From the IMG/VR virus record IMGVR_UViG_3300009425_000016, positions 1 through 64,000 of that record: a stretch of 64,000 nucleotides of DNA. One strand, given 5' to 3'. The DNA is from a virus. Shown here in pieces: positions 17,926 to 37,108 of this stretch (position 1 is the first letter of the stretch; every line of letters starts with the position of its first letter). Below the pieces are notes generated by a model. That model did no database searches. It had not been told where the DNA came from and saw only the letters and a program-made list of their open reading frames with translations. Both the position numbers and the translations under genes were made by a program.

Positions 17926-17931
17926 AATTAA

Positions 17932-19308
17932 TCATATTAAATATCGTTCAAGTTGTGGTGTAATATCTAAAACATTCGTTTTTCTTAATTTATCTGCTAA
18001 TCTGGTATGTTTAATAAATTGCTCTTTATTATATTTTATATTAGGTAACATCCATCTATCACCTCTTTTTTCAAGATCATCTGGTAACTTGTCTACAAAT
18101 TCTGAATCTTTTCTATAATGACTTACATCTTTATTAAGATCTGAATATACTTGCTGAAAACATTCTTGTTCTTCTTCATTAATATTATAATCATATATTA
18201 CTCTCTCTATTTCACTTCTAATAAAATCTTTATGATCATCATCTAACCAATGTATATTTAAATGCATTGGTTCAACTATTGGATGTAGTGCCGGTGGATC
18301 TATAAATTCAAATCTACGGCTTTGCTCTATCATCCATGCAACATGATTGTAAATATGAAAAATATTATATACATTTATTACACTATTAAATCCTATACTA
18401 TTAATATTTGGTAATTCACACGCTTTTAAGAAATTAGTATGAACTCTTTTCCACTCACATCCTGTTCTACAATATTCAAAAACTTTTCCCAATCCATCAA
18501 CACTAAACCGTAATTGTAACCCTTTAAATTGAGAAAGAAGATCAATAACTTTCTTAGGCCAAACTGTACCATTAGTAATTAAATGTAGTTGTATATTTTT
18601 AGCATCACCATGTTCAACTAACTGTTTCCATATTTTTATACAACTTGGATCTATAAATGTTTCTCCTCCAGACATTTTTAACCAACGGACACCTTCAAGA
18701 TTATAATTATCATATAATCGAGAATTATCTTGATCCCAATCAATAGATTCAGCCATTTTCATTTGCCACGGATTATCAGTCCACATATCCCAATATGTAC
18801 CTTCTAATAAATCATAATTATCTAAAACTTCCTTTTCTATTTTACTACTCCAAATACTACTACAAGATCGACATTTGGCATTACATAATTTTCCTGGTCG
18901 CAAATCTATGTCTATTGGATGGTCATATATATTTCCTGTTTCAACATTAAATCCCATATTATCCATCGTAATACCTTCTGGTGCATATCTGTTTATAAAA
19001 TCAATTCTAGCACTTTCTCTTTCAGCACCAATTTCTTCATAATGCTTACAATAATTACAAGGATTTGAACCATCTTCTAAAACGGGCCATTCATTTTTTA
19101 AAAAAGCTTCTCTAACAGTTTTAATCTTATCACTTGACCACCATTTTTCTTGTTGATTGGCTACAGTATCCCCTTCTCGAATTGCCGGTGTATCAATTCT
19201 ATCCATAATATCACTCATACAACATAATTTAAAAGCACTATTACCCATACTAGTATAGGTGTGTAAAAATGGTGCAGGGCAGAACACCTTCTTGATTTGC
19301 TCTTTCAT
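17932..19308 (-). CDS. Twitch-type radical SAM enzyme 3
   Basis: A 458-aa protein built like enzyme 2. It has N-terminal cysteines C10 (VFCPAPFLHTY), C29/C30 (FKLCCMSD) and C84/C87 (NPCNYCKHYEE). The rSAM motif is C142-x3-C146-x2-C149 (GKLCNAKCRSCSS), and LKMSGGETFIDPS binds SAM (GGET in place of GGEP). LHLITNGTVWPK and LRFSVDGLGKVFEYCR follow. The tail is HTRLADKLRKTNVLD, near-identical in pattern to enzyme 2. The two are probably recent paralogues flanking the 390-aa partner gene (6-bp gap to it). It overlaps the rSAM-aminotransferase gene by ATGA. Confidence 0.9.
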   Translation of the reverse strand: MKEQIKKVFCPAPFLHTYTSMGNSAFKLCCMSDIMDRIDTPAIREGDTVANQQEKWWSSDKIKTVREAFLKNEWPVLEDGSNPCNYCKHYEEIGAERESARIDFINRYAPEGITMDNMGFNVETGNIYDHPIDIDLRPGKLCNAKCRSCSSIWSSKIEKEVLDNYDLLEGTYWDMWTDNPWQMKMAESIDWDQDNSRLYDNYNLEGVRWLKMSGGETFIDPSCIKIWKQLVEHGDAKNIQLHLITNGTVWPKKVIDLLSQFKGLQLRFSVDGLGKVFEYCRTGCEWKRVHTNFLKACELPNINSIGFNSVINVYNIFHIYNHVAWMIEQSRRFEFIDPPALHPIVEPMHLNIHWLDDDHKDFIRSEIERVIYDYNINEEEQECFQQVYSDLNKDVSHYRKDSEFVDKLPDDLEKRGDRWMLPNIKYNKEQFIKHTRLADKLRKTNVLDITPQLERYLI

Positions 19309-21767: not shown

Positions 21768-24700
21768 TATACAACTCCTTTAATTCAGGAAAAATTATAC
21801 TAAAATTAAGTTGTCTAATATTTTCTAAATTTTGTATGTATTCAAATGTCTGTGGCAATAAATTAGATTGATCCTCAGACCACATAAATTCAATTAATGA
21901 TTTTAATTTTTTAATTCCATTTGGTTTTTCCAATACTCGATCATAATATTCAAAATTTTCTTCCAACCATTTATAAAAATCATTATATTTGTCTGAAATT
22001 TTTTCTTTATATTCTTTTGTTAAACATTTTACACTTAAAAAATTAGGACTATGTAAAAAATGAATTCCTATCATTCCTCCATGTTCAGGCCATTTATTTA
22101 TTTCAGAAATTTCATCTTGTGTCAATTTCCATTTAATAAAATCTGGTATGTGCATTATATTAAAAATACTCGCAGTCGTGTCTATATTAATTTTTATATG
22201 TTCATTATTTTTTGCAAAATTATTATATTTTATAAGATTTTGCATTGTCGTATCCAATTTACTAGGATATCTTAACCATTCATGACGCTTCTCAACACCA
22301 TCCAGACTCACAGCAATTTCTACTAATGATAACCTCTTTAACATCGAAAATAATTTATCATCAATTTCTTCAGCATTTGTATTAAAGCGTAAATTTGTTG
22401 TTTTTGGAGAATTTTTAATAAAATCCTTAAATTCGTTTATAATTGTAGGTTCACCTCCTAATATATACGCATCTGATATTGGTTGTTCTGATAACTCTTT
22501 CCAAGTTTGTTCATTCTTATACCAATTATATCCACCATTTTGATCCTTCCCCTTAGACCAACTTAATTTGTTTTGTAAATCTGAACTTATATTACTATTC
22601 TTCATTTTTGTCCAATCCTTTATCCAAAAACTACTATCATCTGGATTACAAGTTGAACAGGCTAAATTACACTTATTTCCTAGTTTTAAATCAACATAAT
22701 GAATTTTTGCTGGTGCTTCTCCATCATCTTTAGTATGCCACACAATCGAATTATAATCCAATTTTTTCTTCCATTTTTTATTTTCCCAAATACGTTTGCT
22801 ATTATATCCAACTTCTTCTTCTTTGTAACATTTTTGACATTCTCGTGGTTTATTTCCTTTAATCATTTCTGAACGCACATTTTTCATATAATTGGTATTC
22901 CAATAATCTTTCCAATTATCATGTTTTAAATTAACCAATTGACCATCATCTTTTCTATTACAACCTATTTGTGGATGTTCATCATCACTACTACTATTAG
23001 CTGTACAACATAATTGCATATTGCCTGTAGTTCTAGTACTTAAATGCATCCAAGGCAAAATACAAAATCCACTATCCTCTTTTTTCCAAGGCGCGGGTGG
23101 TGCATTATCTAAATAATCAATCATCTCTGATGCTAAATGATTTTTATATTGTTGATTTCTAATATTATCATAAAATCTAGTTGTTTTCTTTAATTGATAA
23201 TGTTTTAAATCTTTTATATTATTGACAATTGTATTTTTAACAAAATTCTGAAAGAATTTTAAACGTGGTTTAATTCCTACAACTTCTTTTGTATTTGCTT
23301 CAAATTTTTCTAAAGCTAATTTTAATAAATCATGATCAATAAATTCAGAATTCAATTCACTACTTTGTGGTATCATTTGGAAATCAACAGCCACATCTAT
23401 CATTGCATCAGGGCCATCATGTTCTGAGAGATTTGTATAATATTTTTTATATAACTCGTCTGCCCATTTATAAATATCATCCAAATTAAATATGTTATAT
23501 GGTTGAGCAACTATAGAAAATCCTACTGAAACCCTGTTTTGTAAATATTCCTTTTCTTTAAAATGACTAAACATTAAATTAACACTCTTATTCAACATAT
23601 CCCAATTAAAAGGATACCGAATATAATCATAAAGCTTATCAGTACCATCTATAGAAATTCTAAAACGACAAAATTTAAAATGTGAAATTTTTTCTAATAA
23701 ATCTGAATTAAATTTTGTACCATTAGTAGTTAAATCTAATACTATATTTTTAGCATAATCATTTTTTATAGCATAATCAACTGCATTTAAAAATTTATGA
23801 TTAACTGTTGGTTCCCCACCAGTAACCTTTAAAACTTCTAATTCTGGTAAAGCGGAAATAACATCTTGTTCTAAAAATGGTTTTTCAGCATGAGATGATA
23901 ATCTATGAGACAATTCTTTTTTATACTTATTATTATTTTCATATTCACCATAATCAAAATGATTTGGTATGCGTTTACCATCATTGACTTGAATGAGTAA
24001 TTCCTTTTGATGTTGATCACTACTACCTGCGCTACACATTCTACATGCTAAGTTACACTTATTATCATACTTTATATCTAAATATTTTAATTTTGGTTTT
24101 TTCAAATTAAATGTATCAATATTATCCGCAAATCTCCCATTCATGGCAATTCGTAAACTTGCGATTCCCATATCTTCTCTTTTCCAACACGTTGAACAAA
24201 TATTTGGTCTTTCATTATTTAAAAATTGTTTTCTTATTTTATTCATTTCTGGACTATAAAATGCATCTTTAATTGTAGCAACATTTGCATGTAATGCATC
24301 TTGGGATGTAACATCTTTTGAATCACTACCCACTCGTAAATTTTTATTACTGTCACAACATACTCGATACCAACCAGCCACACTTGATGTCATATGTATC
24401 CACGGCAATATACAAAAATTTTTTGTAGGAATATTTATGTTTTCCTGTAAAAACTTTTTTGTATATATTTCACCTTGTAAAACTTTTCGACCAAAACTAT
24501 TATATATTCGTTCTGAATCATCATCATCTAATTTAATATCAGGTAAAAATCCGTACACATATACTTGATCATTTAACTTAGAAATAAGTTTTTTTAATTG
24601 CTTAAAAATATTTGAATAATTTTTATGTTCCCATAATGCATATTCATTAGCATAAACATTACTAACCCATATAAATGTATTTCCTTTGAGATTATTAATT

Positions 24701-25992
24701 TCATTAACCTGCCAACCCTCATAATTATTTAAAATGTCCCATCTCCAATATTGATGTCGCTGTCTATTTTTTACAAATGTTTCCCAATGTTGTACAAAAT
24801 TATCTAATCCTCCCCATCTAGTACATTCTTCTGTCCATAATTCATCAAATTCTTCAATATCATCACAAAATTCTATTAAACTATCCTCATTATTTTTCAA
24901 ATCTCTAAATTTTATATTAACCAATTCATTAAATATATCTTTAAATGTTTGTTCTTTTGGATTCCAATATTCTGATAATATTTTCTTAAAAGATAAAGAA
25001 GGTCCACTTATATCATAAAATATAACATTTTCTTTTCCTGAATAATTAAAAGTTTTTAAAATATGATTTCCAATAAATCCAGAAGATAAAATTACATAAT
25101 TATCAAATTGTTTTGGTGCGTTTATTTCTTCTAATAATTCATAAAAATTATTTTCAGGTATTTCTGTTGGATATGGTTCTGAATTAAATGCATATAATTT
25201 ACTAGAATATCCTCTAGTTGTAAGTGAAGTTTGATATCTAACCTTAGTTTCCAGTTCATTAAGTAATTCTTTATCTTTTTGTACTTCATCTAAATAAAAA
25301 AATTCTTTACTTTCTCTTATTTTATAATTAAATCCTTCAACATTATATCCATATTTAAAAACTGTATTTAAAAAGTTCCACCCCCATCCCATACGTGATC
25401 CCTTTTCAATTTTTTTCATTTTTAATTTATAATCTCTCGGCTTTAACCATAGAGGTGTATAATCATCATGAAAATCTTCAACACATCTTTCAGGTTCATA
25501 TAATTCTTCTATTGTCAAAATACTAGAAGTGTGCAGGTCAGGGCAATGAATATCTTTATAAATTTCCAAATTTAAAAACATCATTTGAGGATGTATACTA
25601 TACCAATTTCTATTCAAATGAATTCTACTTTTAGCATCATTGTCAACAATATGACAAAGCATAGCTGTATTTGGAGAAGCTTCTGCTTGTTCAATCAAAT
25701 AAAAACACGTATCATGACTAAGACGATGTCCCGGTTTTTGAATTAATGCATATTTCCTCTCACTAGATAATGCATCTTTGATACATTCTTGTAAATCATT
25801 ATTTTCACTGTAATATATGTTTGCATGAATGTTGGCCAATTGTCCTTGAAGTTTCGATTTTGTAAACTGATCTGCAAGATCAAGTAAATATGGATCATCA
25901 ATCTCATCTTCCCAATCAGAAAAAGTTCTCCAATAGCAAAAATAAATTTCTTTTTCAGCTATCTCATTTAATACTTTATTAGAATTTAACAT
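21754..25992 (-). CDS. 1412-aa fusion: partner module plus two twitch radical SAM domains
   Basis: Three parts in one uninterrupted frame. Residues 1-~500 resemble the stand-alone 390-aa protein of 16753-17925. Residues ~520-950 are a complete twitch rSAM: C527 (NFCILPWIHM), C545/C546, C599/C602, core C646-x3-C650-x2-C653 (DNKCNLACRMCSAG), LKVTGGEPTVNHK. Residues ~970-1412 are a second complete copy: C977 (GFCILPWMHLS), C995/C996, C1052/C1055, core C1108-x3-C1112-x2-C1115 (GNKCNLACSTCNPD), YILGGEPTIIN. All cluster cysteines are intact in both. The second copy is closest to the product of 29930-31309 (shared CILPW/CALPW, STR, CCTANxS and CxKCxKEEE blocks). Overlaps on both sides (14 bp each) place it in the operon. 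Confidence 0.9.
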   Translation of the reverse strand: MLNSNKVLNEIAEKEIYFCYWRTFSDWEDEIDDPYLLDLADQFTKSKLQGQLANIHANIYYSENNDLQECIKDALSSERKYALIQKPGHRLSHDTCFYLIEQAEASPNTAMLCHIVDNDAKSRIHLNRNWYSIHPQMMFLNLEIYKDIHCPDLHTSSILTIEELYEPERCVEDFHDDYTPLWLKPRDYKLKMKKIEKGSRMGWGWNFLNTVFKYGYNVEGFNYKIRESKEFFYLDEVQKDKELLNELETKVRYQTSLTTRGYSSKLYAFNSEPYPTEIPENNFYELLEEINAPKQFDNYVILSSGFIGNHILKTFNYSGKENVIFYDISGPSLSFKKILSEYWNPKEQTFKDIFNELVNIKFRDLKNNEDSLIEFCDDIEEFDELWTEECTRWGGLDNFVQHWETFVKNRQRHQYWRWDILNNYEGWQVNEINNLKGNTFIWVSNVYANEYALWEHKNYSNIFKQLKKLISKLNDQVYVYGFLPDIKLDDDDSERIYNSFGRKVLQGEIYTKKFLQENINIPTKNFCILPWIHMTSSVAGWYRVCCDSNKNLRVGSDSKDVTSQDALHANVATIKDAFYSPEMNKIRKQFLNNERPNICSTCWKREDMGIASLRIAMNGRFADNIDTFNLKKPKLKYLDIKYDNKCNLACRMCSAGSSDQHQKELLIQVNDGKRIPNHFDYGEYENNNKYKKELSHRLSSHAEKPFLEQDVISALPELEVLKVTGGEPTVNHKFLNAVDYAIKNDYAKNIVLDLTTNGTKFNSDLLEKISHFKFCRFRISIDGTDKLYDYIRYPFNWDMLNKSVNLMFSHFKEKEYLQNRVSVGFSIVAQPYNIFNLDDIYKWADELYKKYYTNLSEHDGPDAMIDVAVDFQMIPQSSELNSEFIDHDLLKLALEKFEANTKEVVGIKPRLKFFQNFVKNTIVNNIKDLKHYQLKKTTRFYDNIRNQQYKNHLASEMIDYLDNAPPAPWKKEDSGFCILPWMHLSTRTTGNMQLCCTANSSSDDEHPQIGCNRKDDGQLVNLKHDNWKDYWNTNYMKNVRSEMIKGNKPRECQKCYKEEEVGYNSKRIWENKKWKKKLDYNSIVWHTKDDGEAPAKIHYVDLKLGNKCNLACSTCNPDDSSFWIKDWTKMKNSNISSDLQNKLSWSKGKDQNGGYNWYKNEQTWKELSEQPISDAYILGGEPTIINEFKDFIKNSPKTTNLRFNTNAEEIDDKLFSMLKRLSLVEIAVSLDGVEKRHEWLRYPSKLDTTMQNLIKYNNFAKNNEHIKINIDTTASIFNIMHIPDFIKWKLTQDEISEINKWPEHGGMIGIHFLHSPNFLSVKCLTKEYKEKISDKYNDFYKWLEENFEYYDRVLEKPNGIKKLKSLIEFMWSEDQSNLLPQTFEYIQNLENIRQLNFSIIFPELKELYNEYK

Positions 25993-26632
25993 TATTATAT
26001 CCGTTTATGAAATTTTTCCAACTTCTTCTGACAATAGGATTCCAAAATTCTGAATCCATATTACATCCATTAGTAAGAATATGATAACGTGGCTTATCAC
26101 TATTATTAATACACTCATGGTTCCATACATTAGAAAAAAGCCACGTAGATCCATTATCAATTGGGATATTGCCCCATCCTGATACATGAAAATCACAACC
26201 TTTTGGATGTTGAATAGAGAAATGTAGGATACTTGGGCCCATTATATCAAGGGTAAGTGGTTGGTCTTCAATATCTTTATCATTATGTAAAAAAATTGAA
26301 CCTCCCGGATCAATTTTCATAAATCTTGTTCTTTCATGAGATAATATTCCCGCATGATTTTGCAAAAAGTCTTTTGTTTTTGGACATTTATCCGCAATAC
26401 TTGTCCAATCATATCTAACATGTTCTAATTCTTCATGATAAACACTGCCGAATTCACCACCAACTCCATGTAATGCTAAACTAGACCAATTCTTTCCACT
26501 ACTTTCTCTATATGGTATCCATTCATCTAATTGTTCAACTTCATGTAAAATGTCTTCCCAACGAAATTGAAAGTCAAGCATTAACCACGGCAATGCACAA
26601 TTATTTATTGCGTAACTATAATCTTTATTCAT
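25979..26632 (-). CDS. Aspartyl/asparaginyl beta-hydroxylase-like 2OG-Fe(II) oxygenase
   Basis: A 217-aa protein in which RTRFMKIDPGGSIFLHNDKD gives H116-x-D118 in the usual AspH setting (a KxxPGG turn just before the metal ligands). NGSTWLFSNVWNHEC gives distal H172, and KPRYHIL provides R182 for 2-oxoglutarate. The start of the protein (LPWLMLDFQFRWEDILHEVE) is typical of the helical lead-in of this family. It would hydroxylate an amino-acid side chain or a small molecule. It lies between the orphan SPASM gene and the 1412-aa rSAM fusion, overlapping both. Confidence 0.78.
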   Translation of the reverse strand: MNKDYSYAINNCALPWLMLDFQFRWEDILHEVEQLDEWIPYRESSGKNWSSLALHGVGGEFGSVYHEELEHVRYDWTSIADKCPKTKDFLQNHAGILSHERTRFMKIDPGGSIFLHNDKDIEDQPLTLDIMGPSILHFSIQHPKGCDFHVSGWGNIPIDNGSTWLFSNVWNHECINNSDKPRYHILTNGCNMDSEFWNPIVRRSWKNFINGYNNVKF

Positions 26633-26933
26633 TTTTTTTATCTATAAAAGTGTCTCTATTTTTTAATTCACATGTCTGTTTACATTTTTTAACAGGTTCA
26701 TCTGAACTCCATGAATTTATAATACCATTAAATAATGGTCCGTCTAATATTTCTTGTATTGTTTGATTATGTAAACTATTATCATATTGTTGATTTAATT
26801 CACCAAATAACGTTTTTGGGGAATGCCCCGCCGCCATATTTAAAGATTCAGCATTTACATAACAACACGGTATTAATTCACCTACATGATTTATAAATAT
26901 CCTTTTTTGATTTCCATATTTACATTCTATCAT
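26625..26933 (-). CDS. Stand-alone SPASM-type iron-sulfur domain (102 aa)
   Basis: This small protein lines up with only the C-terminal third of the 353-aa rSAM protein of 28890-29951. Matching landmarks are MIECKYGNQKRIFINHVGELI with INCKAIDKKEIFVTAEGHVF, then PCCYV with PCCWT. TIQEILDGPLFNGIINSWS matches TIKEIVNGPFFKAIEDSWS, and VKKCKQTCELKN matches LKVCANKCGIGF. The cysteines (C4, CC, CxxxC) are those expected to hold an auxiliary cluster. No rSAM motif is present. The rSAM half without a SPASM domain is encoded two genes upstream (28300-28890), so the two are probably halves of one ancestral gene and may work as a two-chain enzyme. Confidence 0.8.
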   Translation of the reverse strand: MIECKYGNQKRIFINHVGELIPCCYVNAESLNMAAGHSPKTLFGELNQQYDNSLHNQTIQEILDGPLFNGIINSWSSDEPVKKCKQTCELKNRDTFIDKKNE

Positions 26934-28303
26934 ATTACTTTCTTTATACTATCCAAAAAATAATCCGCTAGCCATTGATTTGACTTTTTTCCAGGATGAC
27001 TTAAATCTCTTGCATAATCATCATAAGCAGAAGGAAGTTTATTTTTTTCAATGTATTCAATTACTTGTTCTCTCGTAGCCTGTTTTCCATCTTCAACAAA
27101 ATTCTCTATCATTTCTGCCATCTCACTAATTGATGTAACATTTATCTGTGCATCTACTTTATTAAAAGGTATCTCATAATCATCAGCCAAAAAATAATGA
27201 AAGGAAGCCTTATTTTCATAACAAACACCTTTAACAGCATTAATATTTCTTGATGCATTTAATTTATTCATATATATATTTCTGGACATATGATTAACCA
27301 ATTGTTTTACATATTGATCAAAATATATATCCCCCTCTTCACCCTGATGAGATCCGAACGGATTTGTACAAATATCAAATTCAAATAAGTCAGTATATTC
27401 AGTTTTATGTTGAATAAAAGAAACATCTTCCCACCAGTAAGGCTCTTTCTGGAGCTCCAATGTCCAATTAGATTCAAAACCCTTTAATATAAGATATTTA
27501 AGTAAATTTTCATTAAAATGAAAAGTACGAGTAATATTAGGACCTAAAAATACTACATGTTTCGGTTTTAAAAGAGGTATTAAATATTGACTAAAAAGAT
27601 ATGCTTGATCATGACTACCTCCTGATAGACCTACATTATAGTTTTTTAATCCCAAAGTTTTACTAAGTATATTAGAAAAACGATCTTTTTCTGCTAAACC
27701 TATACCATAAACATAACTACATCCTAATATTAAAATACTATCACCTTTATTGTCAAAATCAAATTCATCAGACCTAAATCCCCAACTATTATGTCTATAC
27801 CAAGGCACTTCTTCACATTCAGTCTGTAAATAATTTATTTGTTTTTTTGATAATGTATATGGCCAATCCTGGCCATCATGAATCATTTTAATTTTCTCAA
27901 ATTGTTCTGTATATCCACACATATCCAGTACATATTTGCCGTAACTGGAATTTTGAAATTTATCATATCGCTCTTTATTATCTTGCCCCATATAAAGATA
28001 ATCACCATTACGTCTATGCCAAGATGTATGCAAAAATGGTATAATTTGTTTTTCTGTAAAATCATGATTTTGTAAATATCCTATAAAATGAGTCAATTCT
28101 GTATCATGAACATTAAAATTTGTTAAATCAAATTCTCCATTATCAATTCTTTGACTAATTTTAGAAATCTTTTCTTCTGAACCATCTTTAATAGGGCATT
28201 TAGGTAAAATATCATCTTCCCATTCTAAACAAAATCCTTTAGTTTTGAAATCTTTTTCTAATTTAAACTTAGCGTTATGGGCATTTAGATGTTCTTCACT
28301 CAT
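26930..28303 (-). CDS. SGNH-hydrolase-like protein (457 aa)
   Basis: The second half has the SGNH blocks. ILILGCSYVYGIG has the block I serine (S196), YNVGLSGGSHDQ is block II, and FLGPNITRTF has the block III asparagine (N256). Near the end DLSHPG gives the block V Asp/His pair (D433, H436). The ~180-residue N-terminal region (helical, with WHRRNGDYLYMG and WYRHNSWGFRSDEF) is not part of the hydrolase core and may recognise the substrate. SGNH enzymes cleave or transfer esters, commonly acetyl groups on glycans. It is the gene that separates the rSAM half from the SPASM half, with ATGA overlaps on both sides. Confidence 0.78.
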   Translation of the reverse strand: MSEEHLNAHNAKFKLEKDFKTKGFCLEWEDDILPKCPIKDGSEEKISKISQRIDNGEFDLTNFNVHDTELTHFIGYLQNHDFTEKQIIPFLHTSWHRRNGDYLYMGQDNKERYDKFQNSSYGKYVLDMCGYTEQFEKIKMIHDGQDWPYTLSKKQINYLQTECEEVPWYRHNSWGFRSDEFDFDNKGDSILILGCSYVYGIGLAEKDRFSNILSKTLGLKNYNVGLSGGSHDQAYLFSQYLIPLLKPKHVVFLGPNITRTFHFNENLLKYLILKGFESNWTLELQKEPYWWEDVSFIQHKTEYTDLFEFDICTNPFGSHQGEEGDIYFDQYVKQLVNHMSRNIYMNKLNASRNINAVKGVCYENKASFHYFLADDYEIPFNKVDAQINVTSISEMAEMIENFVEDGKQATREQVIEYIEKNKLPSAYDDYARDLSHPGKKSNQWLADYFLDSIKKVI

Positions 28304-28890
28304 TTCACTTCTCCACTACCTGTTCTATGTGAATATATTTTTCTAAATCTTTTAAATCCTTCAACTTTAGACATATTCTCTGCCTTCTTTATTAAATGTT
28401 CATTATGATCAAATACAATAAATTGCCATGTTGCATTGCCGCCCGCACCTATAAATGCTCTATAATTTTCCTGCACCTTTTTAAAATTAGATCCAATTCT
28501 ATATTTTTCCAATGATTTTTGATCTGTTCCATCAAGACCAAAAAATACAGATAACTTTCTTCTACCCAGATCTTCCCAGAATTTAATAGTTCGAGTAGAT
28601 CCATTAGTAGCAACATTAACATCTGAAAAATCTAAAAAATAATCTACTATGTCTATAAATTCCGGATGAGTAGTGGGTTCATCGACTGATCCACAAAAAT
28701 TTATAATTTTCAAATTGGGTAAATATCCTTTCGGAATCCATTTTTTTAAATCTTCAAATTTAATATAAGACTTATTAAGTAATGGTCCAACTTTATCATG
28801 CATTTCTTGACGAAGACATCCTGGACATTTAATATTACAAAAACTAGTAAGTTCTATATCAATCCATTCTATGGTATTTTTATTCCACAT
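28300..28890 (-). CDS. Radical SAM domain protein lacking its SPASM half (196 aa)
   Basis: The cluster motif is C18-x3-C22-x2-C25 (SFCNIKCPGCLRQ), at exactly the same positions as in its neighbour 28890-29951 (C18/C22/C25). IINFCGSVDEPTTHPEF is the SAM loop. SVFFGLDGTDQKSLEKYR and WQFIVFDHNEH are also shared (FSIDGLEDTNHLYRQ and WDFIVFKHNEH in the neighbour). The protein ends at SHRTGSGEVK, where the paralogue continues for about 150 residues into linker and SPASM domain. The stop overlaps the SGNH start by ATGA. The missing C-terminal domain appears as the separate 102-aa gene 26625-26933. Confidence 0.88.
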   Translation of the reverse strand: MWNKNTIEWIDIELTSFCNIKCPGCLRQEMHDKVGPLLNKSYIKFEDLKKWIPKGYLPNLKIINFCGSVDEPTTHPEFIDIVDYFLDFSDVNVATNGSTRTIKFWEDLGRRKLSVFFGLDGTDQKSLEKYRIGSNFKKVQENYRAFIGAGGNATWQFIVFDHNEHLIKKAENMSKVEGFKRFRKIYSHRTGSGEVK

Positions 28891-29951
28891 TATAAAAATT
28901 GTTCATTATATGCATCAAATCCTATTCCACATTTGTTAGCGCAAACTTTAAGTTTTCCATCTTTAACACTGGAACATGACCAAGAGTCTTCTATGGCTTT
29001 GAAAAACGGGCCGTTAACTATTTCTTTTATAGTATGTTTTCTGAGACTGATATTTTCATAATCTCCTATTAATTTCCAAATAGGTGCTTCGCGGGGTTTC
29101 CAATACCATTTATATTGTTGTCCCGCTGTCCAACAACAAGGAAACACATGTCCTTCTGCCGTAACAAATATTTCCTTCTTATCTATTGCTTTACAATTAA
29201 TAGGTGTTGTATCATAATATGCATCCATGCTACCATGTTCAGTAACTAAATCTTTTTCTTTTTTTAGTGCAACATTAACAAACTCTAAACTGGGTTTTTC
29301 TAACTTCTGAGTATTTTCGCCTTTTCGATTTGTTGCTTGATGGACGTCTTTACCTTTATGTTGAACAGTCGAAAAGAAACGTCCTGTTTTTTTGACTTGA
29401 AATTTTTCAAAGCCCATATCCATCGCCAATTGTCTTGCCTCATCTACCTGATGTTCATTATGTTTAAACACTATAAAATCCCATTTAGCATGACCACCTC
29501 GATCAATAAACGCCTTGGCATTCTCCATTACTCTTTCCCATTTAACTTTTTGCCTATATAAATGATTAGTATCCTCTAAACCATCTATACTAAATGTTAC
29601 AACTACATCTATATCTGCTAAATCTTCCCAAAAATATTCTGGTTTAGCGCCTCCATTGGTATTCATACCTAACCACATATTGGGATTAGCATTTCTAAAA
29701 GATCTAAATCCCTCGATTGCATAATTGCTTATGCATGGATCACCCAAATTACCACACATATACATGGAGTCCAACTGTTCTACAAAATGCCAAGGAAACA
29801 TTTCATAATAATCCATAGAACTTAACATTGCATTTGTGAGATAGGGATTATCTTTACCACCATTTATATTACGGTCACATTGAGGGCAAGCGGCATTACA
29901 TCCCTGAGTAGGTTCAATATGCACACTTTTTATTTCATCATATCTATACAT
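28890..29951 (-). CDS. Radical SAM/SPASM protein (353 aa)
   Basis: A complete, compact rSAM-SPASM enzyme. The core motif is C18-x3-C22-x2-C25 (QGCNAACPQCDRN). MYMCGNLGDPCIS follows at the SAM-loop position (GNxGDP rather than GGEP), then VVTFSIDGLEDTN and WDFIVFKHNEHQ. The SPASM part starts around INCKAIDKKEIFV, with PCCWTAG and CANKCGIGF supplying cluster cysteines. SPASM enzymes frequently modify ribosomal peptides, but many other substrates are known. It overlaps the upstream twitch rSAM by 22 bp and abuts the truncated paralogue (1-bp overlap), so the two paralogues arose side by side. Confidence 0.9.
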   Translation of the reverse strand: MYRYDEIKSVHIEPTQGCNAACPQCDRNINGGKDNPYLTNAMLSSMDYYEMFPWHFVEQLDSMYMCGNLGDPCISNYAIEGFRSFRNANPNMWLGMNTNGGAKPEYFWEDLADIDVVVTFSIDGLEDTNHLYRQKVKWERVMENAKAFIDRGGHAKWDFIVFKHNEHQVDEARQLAMDMGFEKFQVKKTGRFFSTVQHKGKDVHQATNRKGENTQKLEKPSLEFVNVALKKEKDLVTEHGSMDAYYDTTPINCKAIDKKEIFVTAEGHVFPCCWTAGQQYKWYWKPREAPIWKLIGDYENISLRKHTIKEIVNGPFFKAIEDSWSCSSVKDGKLKVCANKCGIGFDAYNEQFL

Positions 29952-31309
29952 AATTCTGGAAAAACTCTTTCAAATTGTTTATGTGGTCTTAATCTATTTA
30001 AATGTGAAATATATTCTTGAAATTCGGGAAGTCTTTCAGACCAATCTTCATCATCCATGAAATTTAATAGTCCTTCATATCTTTTAATTCCATAGGATGA
30101 ATTTGCCCAATCATCAAATTCTATATTTTCTACACCGGTACATAATTTCCAATTATCTTCCATCCAAGGAAAAAACTCTTCTTCATATTTCTCTCTAATT
30201 TTATATTTTAATTCTTTTGGTATTATTTTAACATTTAATTGTGGTGGCCAATATGCCAAATGACAATTGATCATTCCTGCTCCCCCAGGCCATTTATTTA
30301 TTTTCTTATATCCTTGCTGAACTTTCCAAGATATAAATTCTGGAAGATAATTAATACTCAATGCCATAATAGTTGTTGCGGTTGTTACTGTAATATTATC
30401 ATCAGTCTGATCCATTAATTTTAAATTCTTTTCAATAATTTTCCATCTACTAGGATAGCGAATATAATCATTATATTTTCCCCAACTATCTATTGAAAAA
30501 TGAAATATTACATGTTTAAATTCACTCCACAATTTGAATAATTTATCTGGTAATTCGACTCCATTTGAATTATATCTTAATTCAATTTTAGAAGCATAGC
30601 CCATTTCAATTACTTTTTCAAGTAAAGTATAATGTTCCTCTATTATTGTACTTTCTCCTCCGGCAAAATACAATTGATAAATGTTGGGTATTTGACTGTA
30701 TAAATCTTCCCAAAAATGAGGACTTATTTTATGCCAATTATACGTTCCTCCATCTTCATTTTTTTTCCATTGACTAGTATCTTTTAATCTTTCATTTTTT
30801 ATTTTAGGATAAAAATCTAACCATTCTTTATTCCATCCAGAAGAATCATTTGGAGAACACATCACACAAGCTAATTGACATTTACTTCCTAATCGTAAAT
30901 CAATATATCTAAGTTTAGGTTCAACAGAACCATCTTCATTTGTATTTTTTATCAATTCATCTAAATCATAAATTTCTCCCCATTTATTAGTTTCCCAAAT
31001 TCTTTTGGGAATATGACCAGAATCCTCTTCTTTAAAACATTTAATACATTGAGGAGGACGTTCACCTTTCATCATCATTAATCTAGTACGCTTCATATAA
31101 TCATTATTCCACGCATCTAATAATCGAGTAGTGTTTAAATTAGCACATTGACCATCCTCATTTCTTATATTTGCCTTTGTTCTTATAGAAGAATTTGGGT
31201 CTTGAACAGCAGACGCATTCGCAGTACAACATACTCTCATATGTCCATTAGGTCTTGTTGATAAATGTATCCACGGCAATGCGCAGAAAGTTGGGGAAGG
31301 ATAATCCAT
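29930..31309 (-). CDS. Twitch-type radical SAM enzyme, first gene of the operon
   Basis: I take ATG 31309 (MDYPSPTF) as start, with GTGAG a few bases upstream. A GTG at 31321 would add four residues. In the 459-aa product the N-terminal cysteines are C9 (TFCALPWIHLSTRP), C27/C28 (RVCCTANAS) and C88/C91 (PQCIKCFKEED). The core motif is C144-x3-C148-x2-C151 (GSKCQLACVMCSPND, with Gln in the position where the others have Asn), and YFAGGESTIIEE binds SAM (GGES). The protein is collinear with the second rSAM unit of the 1412-aa fusion. The ATAAATA motif at 31344-31350 would make it the first gene of the long minus-strand run. Confidence 0.9.
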   Translation of the reverse strand: MDYPSPTFCALPWIHLSTRPNGHMRVCCTANASAVQDPNSSIRTKANIRNEDGQCANLNTTRLLDAWNNDYMKRTRLMMMKGERPPQCIKCFKEEDSGHIPKRIWETNKWGEIYDLDELIKNTNEDGSVEPKLRYIDLRLGSKCQLACVMCSPNDSSGWNKEWLDFYPKIKNERLKDTSQWKKNEDGGTYNWHKISPHFWEDLYSQIPNIYQLYFAGGESTIIEEHYTLLEKVIEMGYASKIELRYNSNGVELPDKLFKLWSEFKHVIFHFSIDSWGKYNDYIRYPSRWKIIEKNLKLMDQTDDNITVTTATTIMALSINYLPEFISWKVQQGYKKINKWPGGAGMINCHLAYWPPQLNVKIIPKELKYKIREKYEEEFFPWMEDNWKLCTGVENIEFDDWANSSYGIKRYEGLLNFMDDEDWSERLPEFQEYISHLNRLRPHKQFERVFPELCIDMMK

Positions 31310-31320
31310 AAATTGTCTCA

Positions 31321-31327
31321 CTAAATA
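31321..31327 (+). promoter_or_regulatory. Putative late promoter CTAAATA for plus-strand cassette
   Basis: CTAAATA on the plus strand, 35-41 bases before the glycosyltransferase start at 31362, in the short divergent gap. It is the same variant as that before gp13, close to the T4 late consensus. Confidence 0.45.
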
Positions 31328-31361: not shown

Positions 31362-32114
31362 ATGACTAATTTTTTTTGTTTGAAGTGGGGAAATAAATAT
31401 CCTCCAAAATATGTGAATCGATTATTCAATTCTTTAAAAATACACTATAATAATTCTTTTAATTTTCATTGTTTAACAGAAAATTCTAAAGGATTAAATA
31501 AAGATATTGAAATAAAACCAATTCCTACAACATTCGATGAATTTCCAAGAACTCAAATTTTCACTTCAGAAAAAATGTGTTATTTTGGAGATTATGCTAA
31601 CATGTCAGGTAAAAAGGCATGGTTTGATTTAGATATATTGATTCAAAATAACATAACAAAATACATACATAAAAATCATCCAAAACCAAAATTTATTTGG
31701 AATTATTGGAGAGATTCATCGGCCTCAAAATTAAATTATGGATATTTAACAACTCCTATAAATTCTTCATTTGTTGCTTGGGATAATGATGCTGGATATG
31801 AAATGTATGAAAATTTATTAAAAACAAAAAAGGAAGCATTCTTTTCATATCCATCTTTCGATAAATTCATATTTTATCAATGTCATCGCAAAAAAATGGT
31901 AGATTTCTGGCCTTCAACCACTGCCTATAATTACAATATAGGTGCAAAATTTCCAAATGATATGACTCCAACAGAATATAAAAAACGTTATAAAATATGT
32001 CTATTCAATACTTCACATAAAGCATGGGCAAAAGAACATGAACAACATGTAGAATTACATGATGCACAAGGATGGGCAAAAGAATTATGGGAAAGTTATA
32101 ATGTCATCTTATGA
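31362..32114 (+). CDS. Glycosyltransferase-like protein (GT-A, DxD)
   Basis: A 250-aa protein with a nucleotide-sugar transferase layout. FFCLKWGNKYPPKYVNRLF gives the first strand and donor-loop region, NFHCLTE the second strand, and SGKKAWFDLDILI the metal-binding D89-x-D91. FIWNYWRDSS and TTPINSSFVAWDND are the acceptor-side strands. It lacks a signal peptide or membrane segment, so it acts in the cytoplasm. The acceptor could be phage protein, DNA modification or host glycan. It is the first of five plus-strand frames, each overlapping the next by 8-16 bp, in an extremely AT-rich segment. Confidence 0.8.
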   Translation: MTNFFCLKWGNKYPPKYVNRLFNSLKIHYNNSFNFHCLTENSKGLNKDIEIKPIPTTFDEFPRTQIFTSEKMCYFGDYANMSGKKAWFDLDILIQNNITKYIHKNHPKPKFIWNYWRDSSASKLNYGYLTTPINSSFVAWDNDAGYEMYENLLKTKKEAFFSYPSFDKFIFYQCHRKKMVDFWPSTTAYNYNIGAKFPNDMTPTEYKKRYKICLFNTSHKAWAKEHEQHVELHDAQGWAKELWESYNVIL

Positions 32115-32634
32115 AACTTTATTAAAAACAAAACATAAAAAATTTAAATATTTAATTGAATATTCTAATAATAAAGATGTTCAAAAAATATCATGGCGAG
32201 TATTTGACGAAATCATGATACATTATGAAGAAGAGCCCGTACATTTTTTATGTAGTTGGTTCTGTCATATAGAAGTGGATGATTTTGAATTATTCGGGTA
32301 TAAGTGCTATTATTATGATATAGATCCTATGGTATGCAAAATTAATAAATTAATAACAAAGAATGTTATTAATAAAGATGTTATATTTGATGATGTTAAA
32401 ATAGAAGACGGTATAATTGTAAACAAATATTGTGAAACATGTTATCCTGTTGGTAGAAAGTTCTCAGGAAAGTTTGTTTTAGTTGGTTCTGATAATCCAC
32501 ATCTATCTTGTATTAATCCGATAAATAGTTGTCAACAAATTATAGATCAAAATCAATTAACAACAATTCATTATAAAACTGAAATAAAAGGTAAACATAA
32601 TTATTATTTGGTGGTAGGATGCAATCAACTATAG
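32101..32634 (+). CDS. Rossmann-like protein, paralogue of the next gene (177 aa)
   Basis: The start is chosen at ATG 32101 (MSSYETLLKT), inside the 3' end of the glycosyltransferase gene. The longer frame adds only antisense-like residues. Landmarks shared with 32619-33512 are FLCSWFCHIEVDDF (GGWFGCPLIDLL there) and CYYYDIDPMVCKINKLI (KIDFYEKDELCKKIL). GKFVLVGSDNPHL (NPVVAIQSNDYFG) and the final HNYYLVVGC (RYMTIGHW) also match. The strand-acid-helix order looks like a methyltransferase-type Rossmann fold with the acidic residue at the end of beta-2, but the glycine-rich motif I is degenerate. The function is unknown. Confidence 0.65.
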   Translation: MSSYETLLKTKHKKFKYLIEYSNNKDVQKISWRVFDEIMIHYEEEPVHFLCSWFCHIEVDDFELFGYKCYYYDIDPMVCKINKLITKNVINKDVIFDDVKIEDGIIVNKYCETCYPVGRKFSGKFVLVGSDNPHLSCINPINSCQQIIDQNQLTTIHYKTEIKGKHNYYLVVGCNQL

Positions 32635-33512
32635 AAAAATTAAAAAAATTTGAAGATAATATTGAAAAGAAAAATCAAGAAATTAGAGATTCTGCAGGAA
32701 ATATTAGAAAAACTATTGGAAAATTAAAAAATGATGTTAGAAAAACTATTGGAAAATATAAAACAAATGTTGGAAAAAATAAAAAACATGTAAGTGATAC
32801 CACAAAAAAAATTAATAAATTACCATATCATAAAATAGAACAATGGATAATAAACAATCAGGTTGGTAGTTTAGAAAGTTATCAAGATTCTTTATCACAT
32901 GGACAATTATCTTCAAAACAATGGTTAGTTGACAAATTACCCAAAGGAAAAGATTTATATCTTGAAGTTATTTCAGACGGAACGCCAACTATTTTAGGAT
33001 ATACACAACATTTACCTTTGGTCAATAGTGAAGGTAATACTGACCCATACCCTGAATCATCTTTATATATTGAAATTATTGGTGGATGGTTTGGTTGTCC
33101 ATTAATAGATCTGTTACATTCTAAATTAGAAATAAAAAAAATAGACTTTTATGAAAAAGATGAATTATGTAAAAAAATATTAGCACAATATCTAAATCAT
33201 TTTGAATTTCCCTTTGAGATTTCTATTTTCGGAGATTTTTTTGAAAGAAAAGAAATTAGACGTAGAGATTTAATCATTAATACCTCAGGAGAACATATGG
33301 AAGATATTATAAAAATGAAACATTATTTTAAAGGAAATCCTGTAGTTGCTATACAATCAAATGATTATTTTGGATTAGATGAACATATCAATTGTGTTCA
33401 TAATGTTGAAGAATTAATTGAAAAAAATCAAATTAAAAATGTGGTATATAAAGGTAGATTAGATTTTCCAAAATATACAAGATATATGACCATAGGTCAT
33501 TGGTATGTTTAA
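32619..33512 (+). CDS. Protein with N-terminal 11-residue repeats and Rossmann-like domain
   Basis: The first ~65 residues are lysine-rich with an 11-residue repeat (RKTIGKLKNDV, RKTIGKYKTNV, then a weaker copy). The DNA is also repeated, with near-identical 21-base units at 32704 and 32737. Eleven-residue periodicity suggests a long amphipathic helix that could lie on a membrane or polymer. The C-terminal ~200 residues resemble the preceding gene: IEIIGGWFGCPLIDLL, IKKIDFYEKDELCKK, RDLIINTSGEH, NPVVAIQSNDY. The strand order fits a methyltransferase-like fold without certain catalytic residues. It overlaps both neighbours. Confidence 0.65.
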   Translation: MQSTIEKLKKFEDNIEKKNQEIRDSAGNIRKTIGKLKNDVRKTIGKYKTNVGKNKKHVSDTTKKINKLPYHKIEQWIINNQVGSLESYQDSLSHGQLSSKQWLVDKLPKGKDLYLEVISDGTPTILGYTQHLPLVNSEGNTDPYPESSLYIEIIGGWFGCPLIDLLHSKLEIKKIDFYEKDELCKKILAQYLNHFEFPFEISIFGDFFERKEIRRRDLIINTSGEHMEDIIKMKHYFKGNPVVAIQSNDYFGLDEHINCVHNVEELIEKNQIKNVVYKGRLDFPKYTRYMTIGHWYV

Positions 33513-34140
33513 ATACGCAGTCGCATGTATATGTGTTGGTGACAAATACAATGTAAAAGATATAAAACGTCTAGAAAAAATGGTTTTTGAAAATACCACA
33601 TATAATATAAACTTTCGAGTATTTGATGAACCAATTCTTCCCAAATGGTGGACTAAAGTTTTATATCATTCCCCCATGATAGAACAATTCGAAGAAGAAG
33701 TTGTATTAGCATTTGATTTAGATGTTATCATTAAGGGCAATATAGATAAACTATTTGATTGGGTTGAACAACAAAATTATCTATGTGCATGTTGGAGTAG
33801 ATGGAGAGAACATATGGAGAATTTTGAAAAGCGGAGGATACAAAAAGAATGTTGCACTCCTTATAACTCCTCTATATTAGGATGGAAACCAAATAACAGT
33901 TTAAAAGTATGGGAAGAATTTGAATTTGAAGATATTGAAAAATGTGGTGGATTTGATATATATCTTTGGATGAAATATCTTGATCCCATTCGTATACCAG
34001 ACCATTTTTATTATTCTGCTAGTCATTCTAATTATCAAGAATTAGATTATCCAATAGCCCTTTTTAATAAAGGATATTCTGACGGACTAGAAAAGGGGGA
34101 AATATATTCTACTGTTCATTGGACTAAAAAATATATCTAA
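33505..34140 (+). CDS. Glycosyltransferase-like protein (DxD)
   Basis: A 211-aa protein beginning with a donor-domain strand (YAVACICVGDKYNVKD). FRVFDEPILPKWWTKV follows, then VVLAFDLDVIIKGNID with the D71-x-D73 metal motif typical of GT-A enzymes. NYLCACWSRWRE and CTPYNSSILGWKP follow as acceptor-side strands, the usual order in GT8/GT-like enzymes. No export signal is seen. The end overlaps the 3' end of the convergent oxygenase-like gene by 4 bp. It is related in layout to 31362-32114 and 34801-35532, making three such transferases at this end of the island. Confidence 0.8.
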   Translation: MFKYAVACICVGDKYNVKDIKRLEKMVFENTTYNINFRVFDEPILPKWWTKVLYHSPMIEQFEEEVVLAFDLDVIIKGNIDKLFDWVEQQNYLCACWSRWREHMENFEKRRIQKECCTPYNSSILGWKPNNSLKVWEEFEFEDIEKCGGFDIYLWMKYLDPIRIPDHFYYSASHSNYQELDYPIALFNKGYSDGLEKGEIYSTVHWTKKYI

Positions 34141-34808
34141 TACCAAACACCATTAGGACTTTCATGTACTAATCCTATATCCTCTTTTAAAACTTCATTA
34201 CAAAATTCCACATCTTCATGAAGATCATTATTCATCATAAATCCAACTGAAAATCTATTACAATTTGTTCCCGCACAATGCCAAGCATATTCTTTATTTT
34301 CTTCAACATGATCTAAATGACTAATAATTTTCAAAGATTTAATATTCCATCCTACAGTATCTTGATATTCTTCAATTTCTTTTGAATCACCATAAATTCT
34401 AGAAATACCTGCACCCGTTTCTGACCAAGAAAATATTATATTTCTGCCTGGGATATTCGCATTATGATGCCATGCAACATATCCATCAGGGGGGTAATGT
34501 TGACATAAAGGACTTCTTCTTGCTCCCACTAAAGAAGCTAATTTATTTGATAATTTTAAAAGTTCTTCATGAGGTTCAGAAGCTTCCAGACCAAAATCAT
34601 TTGATAATATATGTGTAGGCCCGCCAGATCCTGAATCACCTTCCATCATATTAAACAAATATTCATCAGAAATAGCCTCTTCTTTTGAAATTATTTCTCT
34701 TTTATTACTATCTTCAATATTTCCATCACTTTTAATAAAATCGAATATAAAAGGTTCAAATAATTTTAAAATTTTTAAAATATCTTGTGGTATATCTTTT
34801 TCAATCAT
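34137..34808 (-). CDS. Putative 2OG-Fe(II) oxygenase of the marine-phage 'WHxN' type
   Basis: A 223-aa protein in which CQHYPPDGYVAWHHNANIPGR is the metal-site region and IIFSWSETGAGISRIYG the next strands. YAWHCAGTNCNRFSVGF gives the distal H177 and R185. The pattern is like small 2OG oxygenase-like proteins common in marine T4-like phages. The expected aspartate of HxD is replaced: the local sequence is H114-H115-N116-A-N118. It could coordinate iron through Asn, use another ligand, or be catalytically inactive. It overlaps the upstream glycosyltransferase by 8 bp. A role modifying the product of that enzyme is plausible. Confidence 0.6.
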   Translation of the reverse strand: MIEKDIPQDILKILKLFEPFIFDFIKSDGNIEDSNKREIISKEEAISDEYLFNMMEGDSGSGGPTHILSNDFGLEASEPHEELLKLSNKLASLVGARRSPLCQHYPPDGYVAWHHNANIPGRNIIFSWSETGAGISRIYGDSKEIEEYQDTVGWNIKSLKIISHLDHVEENKEYAWHCAGTNCNRFSVGFMMNNDLHEDVEFCNEVLKEDIGLVHESPNGVWY

Positions 34809-35532
34809 GCCAACCTGTTCCTTTGGGATAACTTAAAAATACAATATCTGAATAATTAACATTTTCTATTTCACAATCATATCCTGGTGCTGTAAAATTC
34901 CATAAACAATCATCATTTTTTATTGTATTAAAATACCAATTCCATTTTATATCATTTCTGTACCATTCATCTTCTTTATCACATAACATTAAATGTAATG
35001 GAAATTGATCCCACATTTCAACAGGACCTTTCTCATATTTAAAATCCCATCTTGAATGCCAATTATGCTCCATCTTCCATTGCCAATTATTCCACCATTC
35101 CTCCATAAATGTTTTCATTTTTTTATTATTTTTCCAAACAAAAGCACCACCATGAGGTCTTTCTTCTTCATGAATGTTCCACCAACATGCTGATGCACAA
35201 TAAGGTCTAATTTTCGTAAAAACTATATCATTATCACAAAGTGCATCAAATACATTATTTGCATTGTCTGATAAACAAACTACATCAGCATCTAAAAAAC
35301 ATGTAATATCATAGGGGGTTTTTGTTAATGCCCACAATTTAGCCCTGATTGTTTTAGGAGCACCGCCAATAACATTGTCAAATATATGATTTCCTGGATC
35401 TAAGATCCATTCATTGTCAGTAACTAATGTGATTGGATATTGTGTATATTCTTTTATGCTGTCGGCGAGGAGTTGTGCCGCAGTAAGAAATCTTTTATTT
35501 TTGGAAGCGACAACAAGAAATCCATTATTCAT
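34801..35532 (-). CDS. Glycosyltransferase-like protein (DxD)
   Basis: The start is set at ATG 35532 (MNNGFLVVASKNKRF), which overlaps the stop of the upstream gene by 8 bp. The longer open frame has no support. In the 243-aa protein, FLVVASKNKRFLTAAQLLADS is the first beta-alpha unit and YPITLVTDN the second. ITCFLDADVVCLS has the metal motif D81-x-D83, and HGGAFVWKNNK is an acceptor-loop region. It resembles GT8-like transferases or nucleotide-diphosphosugar transferases. It is adjacent to the tail-fibre gene group, so virion glycosylation is one possible role. Confidence 0.82.
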   Translation of the reverse strand: MNNGFLVVASKNKRFLTAAQLLADSIKEYTQYPITLVTDNEWILDPGNHIFDNVIGGAPKTIRAKLWALTKTPYDITCFLDADVVCLSDNANNVFDALCDNDIVFTKIRPYCASACWWNIHEEERPHGGAFVWKNNKKMKTFMEEWWNNWQWKMEHNWHSRWDFKYEKGPVEMWDQFPLHLMLCDKEDEWYRNDIKWNWYFNTIKNDDCLWNFTAPGYDCEIENVNYSDIVFLSYPKGTGWHD

Positions 35533-35992
35533 TTTCTTCAATTGCTGGTTTGAGAACATTTCCCCATTCAGTAAGACCATGAATTGGATCACTGATTGAT
35601 TTTAGTAATAATACAGTAACCCACGCATTTAATTCTACAAGATTTGTTGATTTTCTTATTTTGGAACGAAGAATTTTATCTTTAGACTCTTTCACTTCTG
35701 ATATTTCAAATGCTTTTAATTTTGTATCAAATAATGTTTTTAAATCATCTTGAGCTTTATCTGATTCTTCTTCTTTTTTTTGATTTATTATTTTTCTTTG
35801 AGAATGGGCATGTGAGAAATCATCTATTTCTTTAGGAGTAAATTTTTTGAAAAATTCTTCCCAATGCTCTGTTCCTACAGAGGTTTGTATCGAATATGTA
35901 TCATCATCATTTGTGTTTTTTAATAAAATTGCAATAGAGGTTTTTTCAGAATTAGTCCAAATTCCTTCAACCACTTCATCACTAAATATCAT
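35525..35992 (-). CDS. Hypothetical protein at the end of the fibre module (155 aa)
   Basis: A short beta-rich start (SIAILLKNTNDDDTYSIQTSV) is followed by a long charged helical region (SQRKIINQKKEEESDKAQDD and onward). The C-terminus is hydrophobic (LVELNAWVTVLLLKSISDPIHG) with a proline turn. No family is recognised. It follows the repeat-rich fibre-like gene by a 21-bp gap, uses an AGGAT ribosome site, and overlaps the glycosyltransferase start. A chaperone or assembly factor for the fibres is possible from position only. Confidence 0.6.
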   Translation of the reverse strand: MIFSDEVVEGIWTNSEKTSIAILLKNTNDDDTYSIQTSVGTEHWEEFFKKFTPKEIDDFSHAHSQRKIINQKKEEESDKAQDDLKTLFDTKLKAFEISEVKESKDKILRSKIRKSTNLVELNAWVTVLLLKSISDPIHGLTEWGNVLKPAIEENE

Positions 35993-36013: not shown

Positions 36014-37108
36014 TTATCCAATTCTCTTATAAAGATTATAAGTGGTTATAATGTTAGAGCTACCATCATTTTGAATTGTAGCTCCTGTCCAATACCCAGT
36101 ATATTGTCCGGTATATTGTCCGCTATATTGTGTAGAATATTGTCCAGTGTAATATGGCCCGTATCGAGCTCCACCAAAGTTTCCATATTGTACTCTATAT
36201 TGTCCTGACCACTGACCAGTATATTGTCCGGTATATTGTCCGCTATATTGTGTAGAATATTGTTGATTTGCTACAGAACACATATAGTCAGTAAATCCAC
36301 CAACTTGTGTCCAAGTTCCAGATCCAGATGCTGATCCCGTTTTTATTTCATAATTTCCCACATTATTTCCACCACTGCCTCCAGTAATACGATTCATCCA
36401 ATGTGCGACTAATGTTTCTATTTCCGCATCTGTCATTTCTTGAACATCTCCACCAGTTCCCTTATATTTTACTGGTTGTTTGCTTCCCACACTACCTGTA
36501 GAAGTTTTTCTCCAAAGATAAATATTTGTGCTGTGTGAATCTTGTGCGGTTGTTTGTGCATAAGCTGCATGTTCTCCACCAGAGGGGGCATTAGTTCCTC
36601 CATGAACATCTATCCACGTTCCTCCTAATGAACCTGAGGGATTGCTTGCTCCCAAATAATATGAACCAACTCCCGTATTGGCTCCCGTTAAAACATATAC
36701 TTCTTGACAACATCTCATAATATCATCTACCAATTTAGCGGTATTCATTTCTTGTAAGACGCCCGATCCTTCCCAAGCTAAAGGCCATACTTCTCCTCCT
36801 GTGGCTTCTGCGGAATTATCATTTGCGCGAAGACCATATGAATTGACTGTAGAAGATCCACTACCAGTAGGATGATACCCCACAGCATCATCTCTTTTAG
36901 TATCAATGAAGTGTCCTAAATTTCCAGTTGTAGTTGTTGATCTTAATTGAATGTTTCCGCGTTGTGCATCAGATTGGTCACTTGCCCATTTTGCTAAAAT
37001 AACAGGAACAATTTTATCCTTTATATTAGCATCTGTCATTTCTCTTAAACTGCTGTTACCTGGGTCTAAATCTGATACCCACAACGGTCTATTATCACCT
37101 GCCGCCAT
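36014..37108 (-). CDS. Fibre-like protein with three internal modules and a Tyr/Gln/Gly repeat tail
   Basis: A 364-aa protein with no recognised enzyme motif. Three copies of a ~100-residue unit are visible. The helical starts are LREMTDANIKDKIV (21-34), LQEMNTAKLVDDIM (118-131) and VQEMTDAEIETLVA (222-235). Each is followed by beta-rich sequence ending in a GTW/GxxG turn (SLGGTWIDVHGG, SGTWTQVGGF). Residues 283-342 then consist of Y-x-G-Q units, with the 16-mer QYSTQYSGQYTGQYTG occurring twice, 40 residues apart, around a central part with NFGGARYGPYYTG. The position among fibre genes and the repeats suggest a surface-exposed virion or adhesion protein. Confidence 0.7.
   Translation of the reverse strand: MAAGDNRPLWVSDLDPGNSSLREMTDANIKDKIVPVILAKWASDQSDAQRGNIQLRSTTTTGNLGHFIDTKRDDAVGYHPTGSGSSTVNSYGLRANDNSAEATGGEVWPLAWEGSGVLQEMNTAKLVDDIMRCCQEVYVLTGANTGVGSYYLGASNPSGSLGGTWIDVHGGTNAPSGGEHAAYAQTTAQDSHSTNIYLWRKTSTGSVGSKQPVKYKGTGGDVQEMTDAEIETLVAHWMNRITGGSGGNNVGNYEIKTGSASGSGTWTQVGGFTDYMCSVANQQYSTQYSGQYTGQYTGQWSGQYRVQYGNFGGARYGPYYTGQYSTQYSGQYTGQYTGYWTGATIQNDGSSNIITTYNLYKRIG
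36096..36263. repeat. 48-bp direct repeat with 120-bp spacing inside the fibre-like gene
   Basis: Identical 48-bp copies at 36096-36143 and 36216-36263, exactly 120 bp (40 codons) apart. They encode the duplicated Tyr/Gln/Gly 16-mer. The nucleotide identity, not just the protein repeat, indicates recent duplication or gene conversion. The phase keeps the frame, so copy number could change by recombination without frameshift. Confidence 0.85.

Follow-up and report, generated by a model that had tools for sequence, protein, structure and literature searches.

Phages of the oceans carry many enzymes whose targets have been guessed rather than located, and a tyrosine-rich, highly repetitive protein at the edge of a viral enzyme island raises the question of whether its repeats are what the neighbouring enzymes act upon. 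In marine T4-like phages, genes for 2-oxoglutarate (2OG) oxygenases and glycosyltransferases (GTs) are numerous, and where targets have been assumed for them, these are DNA or host LPS. The stretch of DNA analysed here (the window) comprises 64,000 nucleotides and belongs to a 75-kb virus record. Its gene order runs from baseplate genes (gp8-, gp6- and gp5-like) through fibre-type ORFs, the gene of the repeat protein (REP) and the enzyme island to tail-sheath and neck genes. REP is located downstream of gp8 and gp6-like baseplate genes and virion-type ORFs, in the fibre/baseplate region, and this position makes a virion location likely and a tail fibre protein the probable identity of REP. Several radical SAM/SPASM ORFs lie at 15452–31321 (minus strand), as does an AspH-like gene (25979–26632; PF05118, E 2.5e-12). 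Four island genes are found on the opposite strand (31362–34140, plus), two of which (31362–32114 and 33505–34140) are mutually related and GT8-like. In 23 of 58 loci, homologs of these opposite-strand genes were found close to REP, frequently as several copies.

The original prediction described three ~100-aa modules followed by a tail of Y-x-G-Q units. The modules are borne out by profile-profile comparison with hhalign: each is ~95 aa long, and they are mutually homologous with E-values of 8e-12 (1 vs 2), 2e-14 (1 vs 3) and 9e-20 (2 vs 3), so that the protein is an internal triplication. The repeats are equally real, but they are not a C-terminal tail. They form a loop that interrupts module 3, whose last strand (TYNLYKRIG) resumes afterwards and matches the end of module 2 in the alignment (Table 1). 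Without the repeat, module 3 aligns with module 2 from end to end, and the sequence following the repeat (TIxxSxxTxSTxxLWxRTA) is conserved in an alignment of 39 REP family members. The AF2 model (mean pLDDT 74.9) places the repeat between strands 279–288 and 336–345, with residues 291–340 at low confidence (pLDDT 32–57). The window protein had no match in Pfam or PHROG, and searches of PDB and BFVD returned no fold resembling its model; a weak match to a PHROG head-protein family was seen in one of the 39 family members.

Table 1. Features of the REP locus in the window (residue numbers refer to the encoded protein).
Feature	Coordinates	Strand	Basis
REP: three-module aromatic-repeat protein, 364 aa	36014..37108	-	ATG start; IMG/VR homologs
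Module 1, residues 7-97	36818..37090	-	hhalign vs modules 2, 3: E 8e-12, 2e-14
Module 2, residues 107-202	36503..36790	-	hhalign vs module 3: E 9e-20
Module 3 first part, residues 210-283	36260..36481	-	alignment and profile comparison
Repeat loop in module 3, residues 284-342	36083..36259	-	two Y-[ST]-G-Q blocks, 120 nt apart
Module 3 closing strand, residues 343-364	36017..36082	-	conserved C-terminal motif xTYxLYxRxA
SMALL: 155-aa charged protein	35525..35992	-	motif LFxxKLEAFEIxxIKxSKNRxLKSxIRKSKSxxEV
GT1: putative GT-A type glycosyltransferase	34801..35532	-	invariant DxD (D81, D83)
OXY: putative Fe/2-oxoglutarate oxygenase	34137..34808	-	W-H-x-N ... H-x-A-x5-R (H114, N116, H177, R185)

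Within 65 residues, the repeat region contains 12 aromatic pairs at a spacing of four, a number reached by none of 20,000 composition-preserving shuffles. The 16-mer QYSTQYSGQYTGQYTG is found twice, 40 residues apart, as had been noted from the sequence; the underlying DNA, then described as identical, agrees at 47 of 48 positions (the last codon is GGT in one copy and GGG in the other). The REP DNA also contains a 61-nt direct repeat with 93% identity and 120-nt spacing, and 12-nt tandem units in two arrays (36099–36131 and 36219–36251). A promoter scan gave no excess over shuffled sequences.

The REP family is undescribed; it is common in aquatic viral contigs and rare in phage records. Scans of IMG/VR returned 58 loci with the window REP as query and 66 with its relative from locus L043, while profile scans returned at least 80 loci for OXY, at least 80 for SMALL, and 80 for GT1. 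By tblastn, only one of 50,697 phage records contained REP, SMALL, GT1 and OXY together, namely Phage C48C1 (Kyanoviridae), in which a REP of 3347 aa adjoins annotated tail fibre genes and is followed by SMALL, GT1 and OXY. In 155 complete REP proteins that are accompanied by both enzymes, the insert in module 3 is 49–3064 residues long (median 158) and contains between 5 and 306 YxG-type motifs. Across the whole family, loop size ranges from none, in the single case of L043, to ~3,000 residues, and loci L077 and L199, with about six repeat units, still have both enzymes. The loop pattern is also variable: REP relatives with the pattern YLGPGPANAIN (L186:4831–7452), the pattern GSRNYASVVGQYA (L195:2479–7679) or an irregular Tyr-rich loop (L197:3434–7708) were observed, all with GT1 and OXY retained. 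Tandem pairs of REP genes precede SMALL in L041, L042, L045, L050, L053–L058 and others; the family has undergone repeated duplication.

The gene order after REP is constant: SMALL, GT1, OXY. In the window, SMALL starts 21 nt after REP, and SMALL/GT1 and GT1/OXY each overlap by 8 nt, which points to coupled expression. SMALL itself had no convincing family match in Pfam or PHROG. When loci were anchored on SMALL (162 distinct proteins among the matches listed), 131 of those with enough flanking sequence on both sides were accompanied by the repeat as well as by GT1 and OXY. A single one, L043, was without all three. No mixed locus was found among these matches, with L326 counted as complete in spite of a gene inserted into its cassette. 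L326 had been a candidate counterexample with enzymes and no repeat, and was rejected, as its REP is repeat-rich and is separated from SMALL by the insertion. The inserted gene (L326:2641–3975; 445 aa) resembles AMP-ligase-type enzymes by eye. Anchoring on GT1 gave the same arrangement: every one of the 142 distinct GT1 genes for which the flanks were long enough is followed by OXY and preceded by SMALL and a YxG-rich ORF. Anchored on OXY, GT1 was present in 150 of 157 loci among the matches listed, the remaining seven being distant members, of which five adjoin capsid and tail-tube genes and two come from bacterial bins. The matches listed for OXY form 74 clusters at 70% identity, and the flanks of the cassette are diverse, with at least 14 gene families represented directly after OXY and at least nine directly before REP. 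The four genes are therefore an old cassette with sharp edges, and not a mere product of general synteny.

A single locus shows which enzymes accompany the repeat and which occur independently of it. In L043, the REP modules and C-terminus are intact, and module 3 has a short loop with no repeat. SMALL is kept, GT1 and OXY are missing at that site, and a radical SAM gene and other GT-like island genes follow directly. The co-loss of repeat and enzymes at this locus is one event on a single 10.9-kb contig, for which no statistics are possible and beyond which GT1 and OXY could sit elsewhere in the genome. The original prediction had named radical SAM enzymes, oxygenases and glycosyltransferases as conceivable modifiers of the repeat, while stating that the sequence proved no link. 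A functional link to GT1 and OXY is supported, as both follow REP at 131 of 131 repeat-bearing loci examined and are missing at the site in L043, whereas radical SAM enzymes were rejected as the main link: their homologs are near a minority of repeat genes and are kept in L043. Likewise, the repeat gene is common in phages lacking the radical SAM island, but it is not common without GT1 and OXY.

We consider that GT1 and OXY modify the repeat loop of the baseplate or fibre protein REP, and that SMALL, GT1 and OXY are its maturation unit, with a probability of roughly 0.6; that REP is modified is likely, judging from gene content and order. The principal alternative is that the cassette serves host takeover, with GT1 and OXY modifying the O-chain of host LPS or some other host target. 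This agrees with the published reading of the pelagimyophage host recognition cluster, which holds fibres and GTs and whose GTs are taken to modify host LPS (PMC7029224), and the other GT-like genes of the island (31362–34140, plus strand) may well do so. For the cassette enzymes it is unlikely, in view of the fixed REP-SMALL-GT1-OXY order across 74 divergent clusters, the gene overlaps, and the finding that the L043 site lacks the repeat, GT1 and OXY all together while other GT genes remain there; a 2OG oxygenase would also have no obvious role in O-chain transfer. For GT1, the sequence data favour the phage's own protein over host LPS as the target.

The composition of the inserts narrows down the residue that such a modification might involve. 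Over 154 inserts, position 1 of the tetrad is Y (68%) or F (32%), position 2 is T or S in 58%, and position 3 is G in 72%. Tyr, Ser, Thr and Gly are present in all 154, and [YF][ST]G occurs in every insert. Pro, Lys, Arg, Asp, Gln and Phe are each absent from some inserts (Lys from 67 and Pro from 68 of the 154), and Asn is absent from three. Tyrosine, originally named as a candidate for modification, is not favoured, as roughly one tetrad in three has Phe at position 1 and some inserts are almost all Phe. As an obligate acceptor it is weakened further, since Phe substitutes freely and some inserts contain only two Tyr. Pro, Lys, Asp, Gln or Phe as sole acceptor can be rejected, each being missing from several inserts with both enzymes. 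With Phe able to stand in for Tyr, and with [YF][ST]G shared by all inserts, O-glycosylation on Ser/Thr at position 2 of [YF]-[ST]-G is the better guess.

These compositions also bear on a second alternative, in which the association is synteny only and GT1 and OXY modify another virion protein, such as the REP modules, SMALL or a neighbouring fibre, and not the loop. A substrate cannot be named from synteny alone, OXY relatives do adjoin capsid and tail-tube genes, and the L043 contrast is one event. Yet L043 keeps the modules and SMALL while both enzymes are lost along with the repeat, and [YF][ST]G is always present in inserts in which Pro, Lys, Asp, Gln and Asn are dispensable, so that this alternative appears quite unlikely.

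GT1 has the DxD motif of the GT-A type, invariant in 20 divergent aligned members, and no curated profile matched it above the cut-off; GT2 was the match in 8 of the 20 members (best E 0.0019), with GT8 at 5e-4 and PF03407 at 0.0075. In OXY, the H-x-N...H motif and the downstream Arg are invariant in all 23 aligned members. It is without the H-x-D/E...H metal triad of Fe(II)/2-oxoglutarate oxygenases, and with Asn where the usual Fe-binding Asp stands its chemistry is uncertain. Some members of the 2OG oxygenase superfamily, such as AspH and the halogenases, do not have the metal-site acid, and function is thus possible. The OXY AF2 model (pLDDT 80.5) is a double-stranded beta-helix with the 2OG-oxygenase fold, and its Foldseek matches were OGFOD1, P4H, ALKBH7, AlkB and AspH (E 1e-4 to 2e-3). 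No curated family was assigned to OXY, the best Pfam match being PF03171 in one member (E 0.037), with none in PHROG; its sequence relation to the AspH-like gene of the window (25979–26632) was not significant. As the catalytic-type residues are invariant across divergent phages, catalysis has probably been retained in both GT1 and OXY. OXY relatives without GT1, SMALL or REP were observed directly after gp23-like capsid and tail-tube-like genes in L174, L175, L182, L185, L191, L192 and L194. OXY is thus not confined to repeat proteins, and these lone relatives perhaps modify the adjoining capsid or tail-tube virion proteins.

Low-complexity aromatic-Gly sequences can self-associate unmodified, and OXY lacks the usual metal-binding Asp, but a loop that is simply an adhesive or elastic, silk-like aromatic-Gly segment, with GT1 and OXY degenerate or regulatory, is very improbable given the invariance of catalytic-type residues in both enzymes across very divergent phages.

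In the favoured reading, the virus resembles pelagimyophages and cyanomyophages, and REP would serve it in host recognition as a fibre or spike close to the baseplate, with a fast-evolving aromatic-Gly repeat loop projecting from its third module. SMALL may bind the REP modules as a chaperone or adaptor. GT1 would then glycosylate the repeats, with Ser/Thr of [YF]-[ST]-G as the most likely attachment site, and OXY could either oxidise a residue of the repeats or create the glycosylation site. The outcome would be a modified, sugar-coated loop that is free to lengthen and vary, and this could be its benefit to the phage.

We also detected a bacterial-looking locus in a Bdellovibrionales bin (L360:1845–4388), which contains OXY (E 1e-49), SMALL (2e-17) and a second oxygenase-like gene of the DUF6445 type. 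A divergent gene of 152 aa adjoins OXY and SMALL and encodes a protein in which a leader precedes six aromatic repeats (GGSAWHPPGSNSTFYSN). OXY and SMALL occur in one of 144 genomes of the bin's class, and the repeat gene is likewise found there only, barring one weak match. This locus, from a single metagenome bin, looks like a peptide-modification locus and supports the association of OXY and SMALL with aromatic repeats. A more tentative extension of the reading is that the cassette represents a dedicated two-enzyme system, an H-x-N oxygenase and a GT with SMALL as substrate adaptor, acting on a hypervariable virion loop of 5 to ~300 units. Uncultured phages of marine and freshwater habitats would carry this system widely, and a bacterium would have acquired a GT-less version of it, whose substrate there is an aromatic repeat peptide with a leader.

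Should the modification of the loop be confirmed, abundant ocean phages would tailor their surface post-translationally, on a loop whose length changes as DNA repeats are gained and lost. Both adsorption and the interpretation of 'auxiliary metabolic genes' in viromes would be affected. With the cassette, one oxygenase family and one GT family have a specific candidate substrate, open to experimental test, within the phage particle itself.

Several known systems resemble parts of this arrangement. Like the region around REP, the pelagimyophage host recognition cluster lies between the baseplate genes and the neck genes and combines fibre genes with GT genes; the available portion of its description gives no account of the repeat family or the four-gene cassette (PMC7029224). 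A structural protein of cyanophage S-RIM2 (KX349269) also has a tetrapeptide repeat (VTGN) and is encoded beside neck genes; it was rejected as a REP homolog, as it has a different N-terminal domain, no aromatic repeat, and no adjoining GT1 or OXY. OXY shares with the Fe/2OG peptide hydroxylases P4H, OGFOD1 and AspH a predicted double-stranded beta-helix and two His and a downstream Arg in the same order, but has H-x-N for H-x-D, and TM-scores of 0.3–0.45 with E ~1e-4 indicate a distant relation. By analogy, the closest working counterpart of the cassette is mimivirus L230, a bifunctional lysyl hydroxylase/glucosyltransferase that acts on Lys of Gly-X-Y collagen-like proteins (PMC9614988). The cassette is not a member of the L230 family: it has two separate genes in place of one bifunctional protein, and the REP repeats are [YF]xGx, often without Lys or Pro, and not Gly-X-Y with Lys acceptors. 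What the two would have in common is a viral hydroxylase and a glycosyltransferase directed at the virus's own Gly-rich, repetitive structural protein, an activity known for L230 (PMC9614988) and predicted for the cassette.
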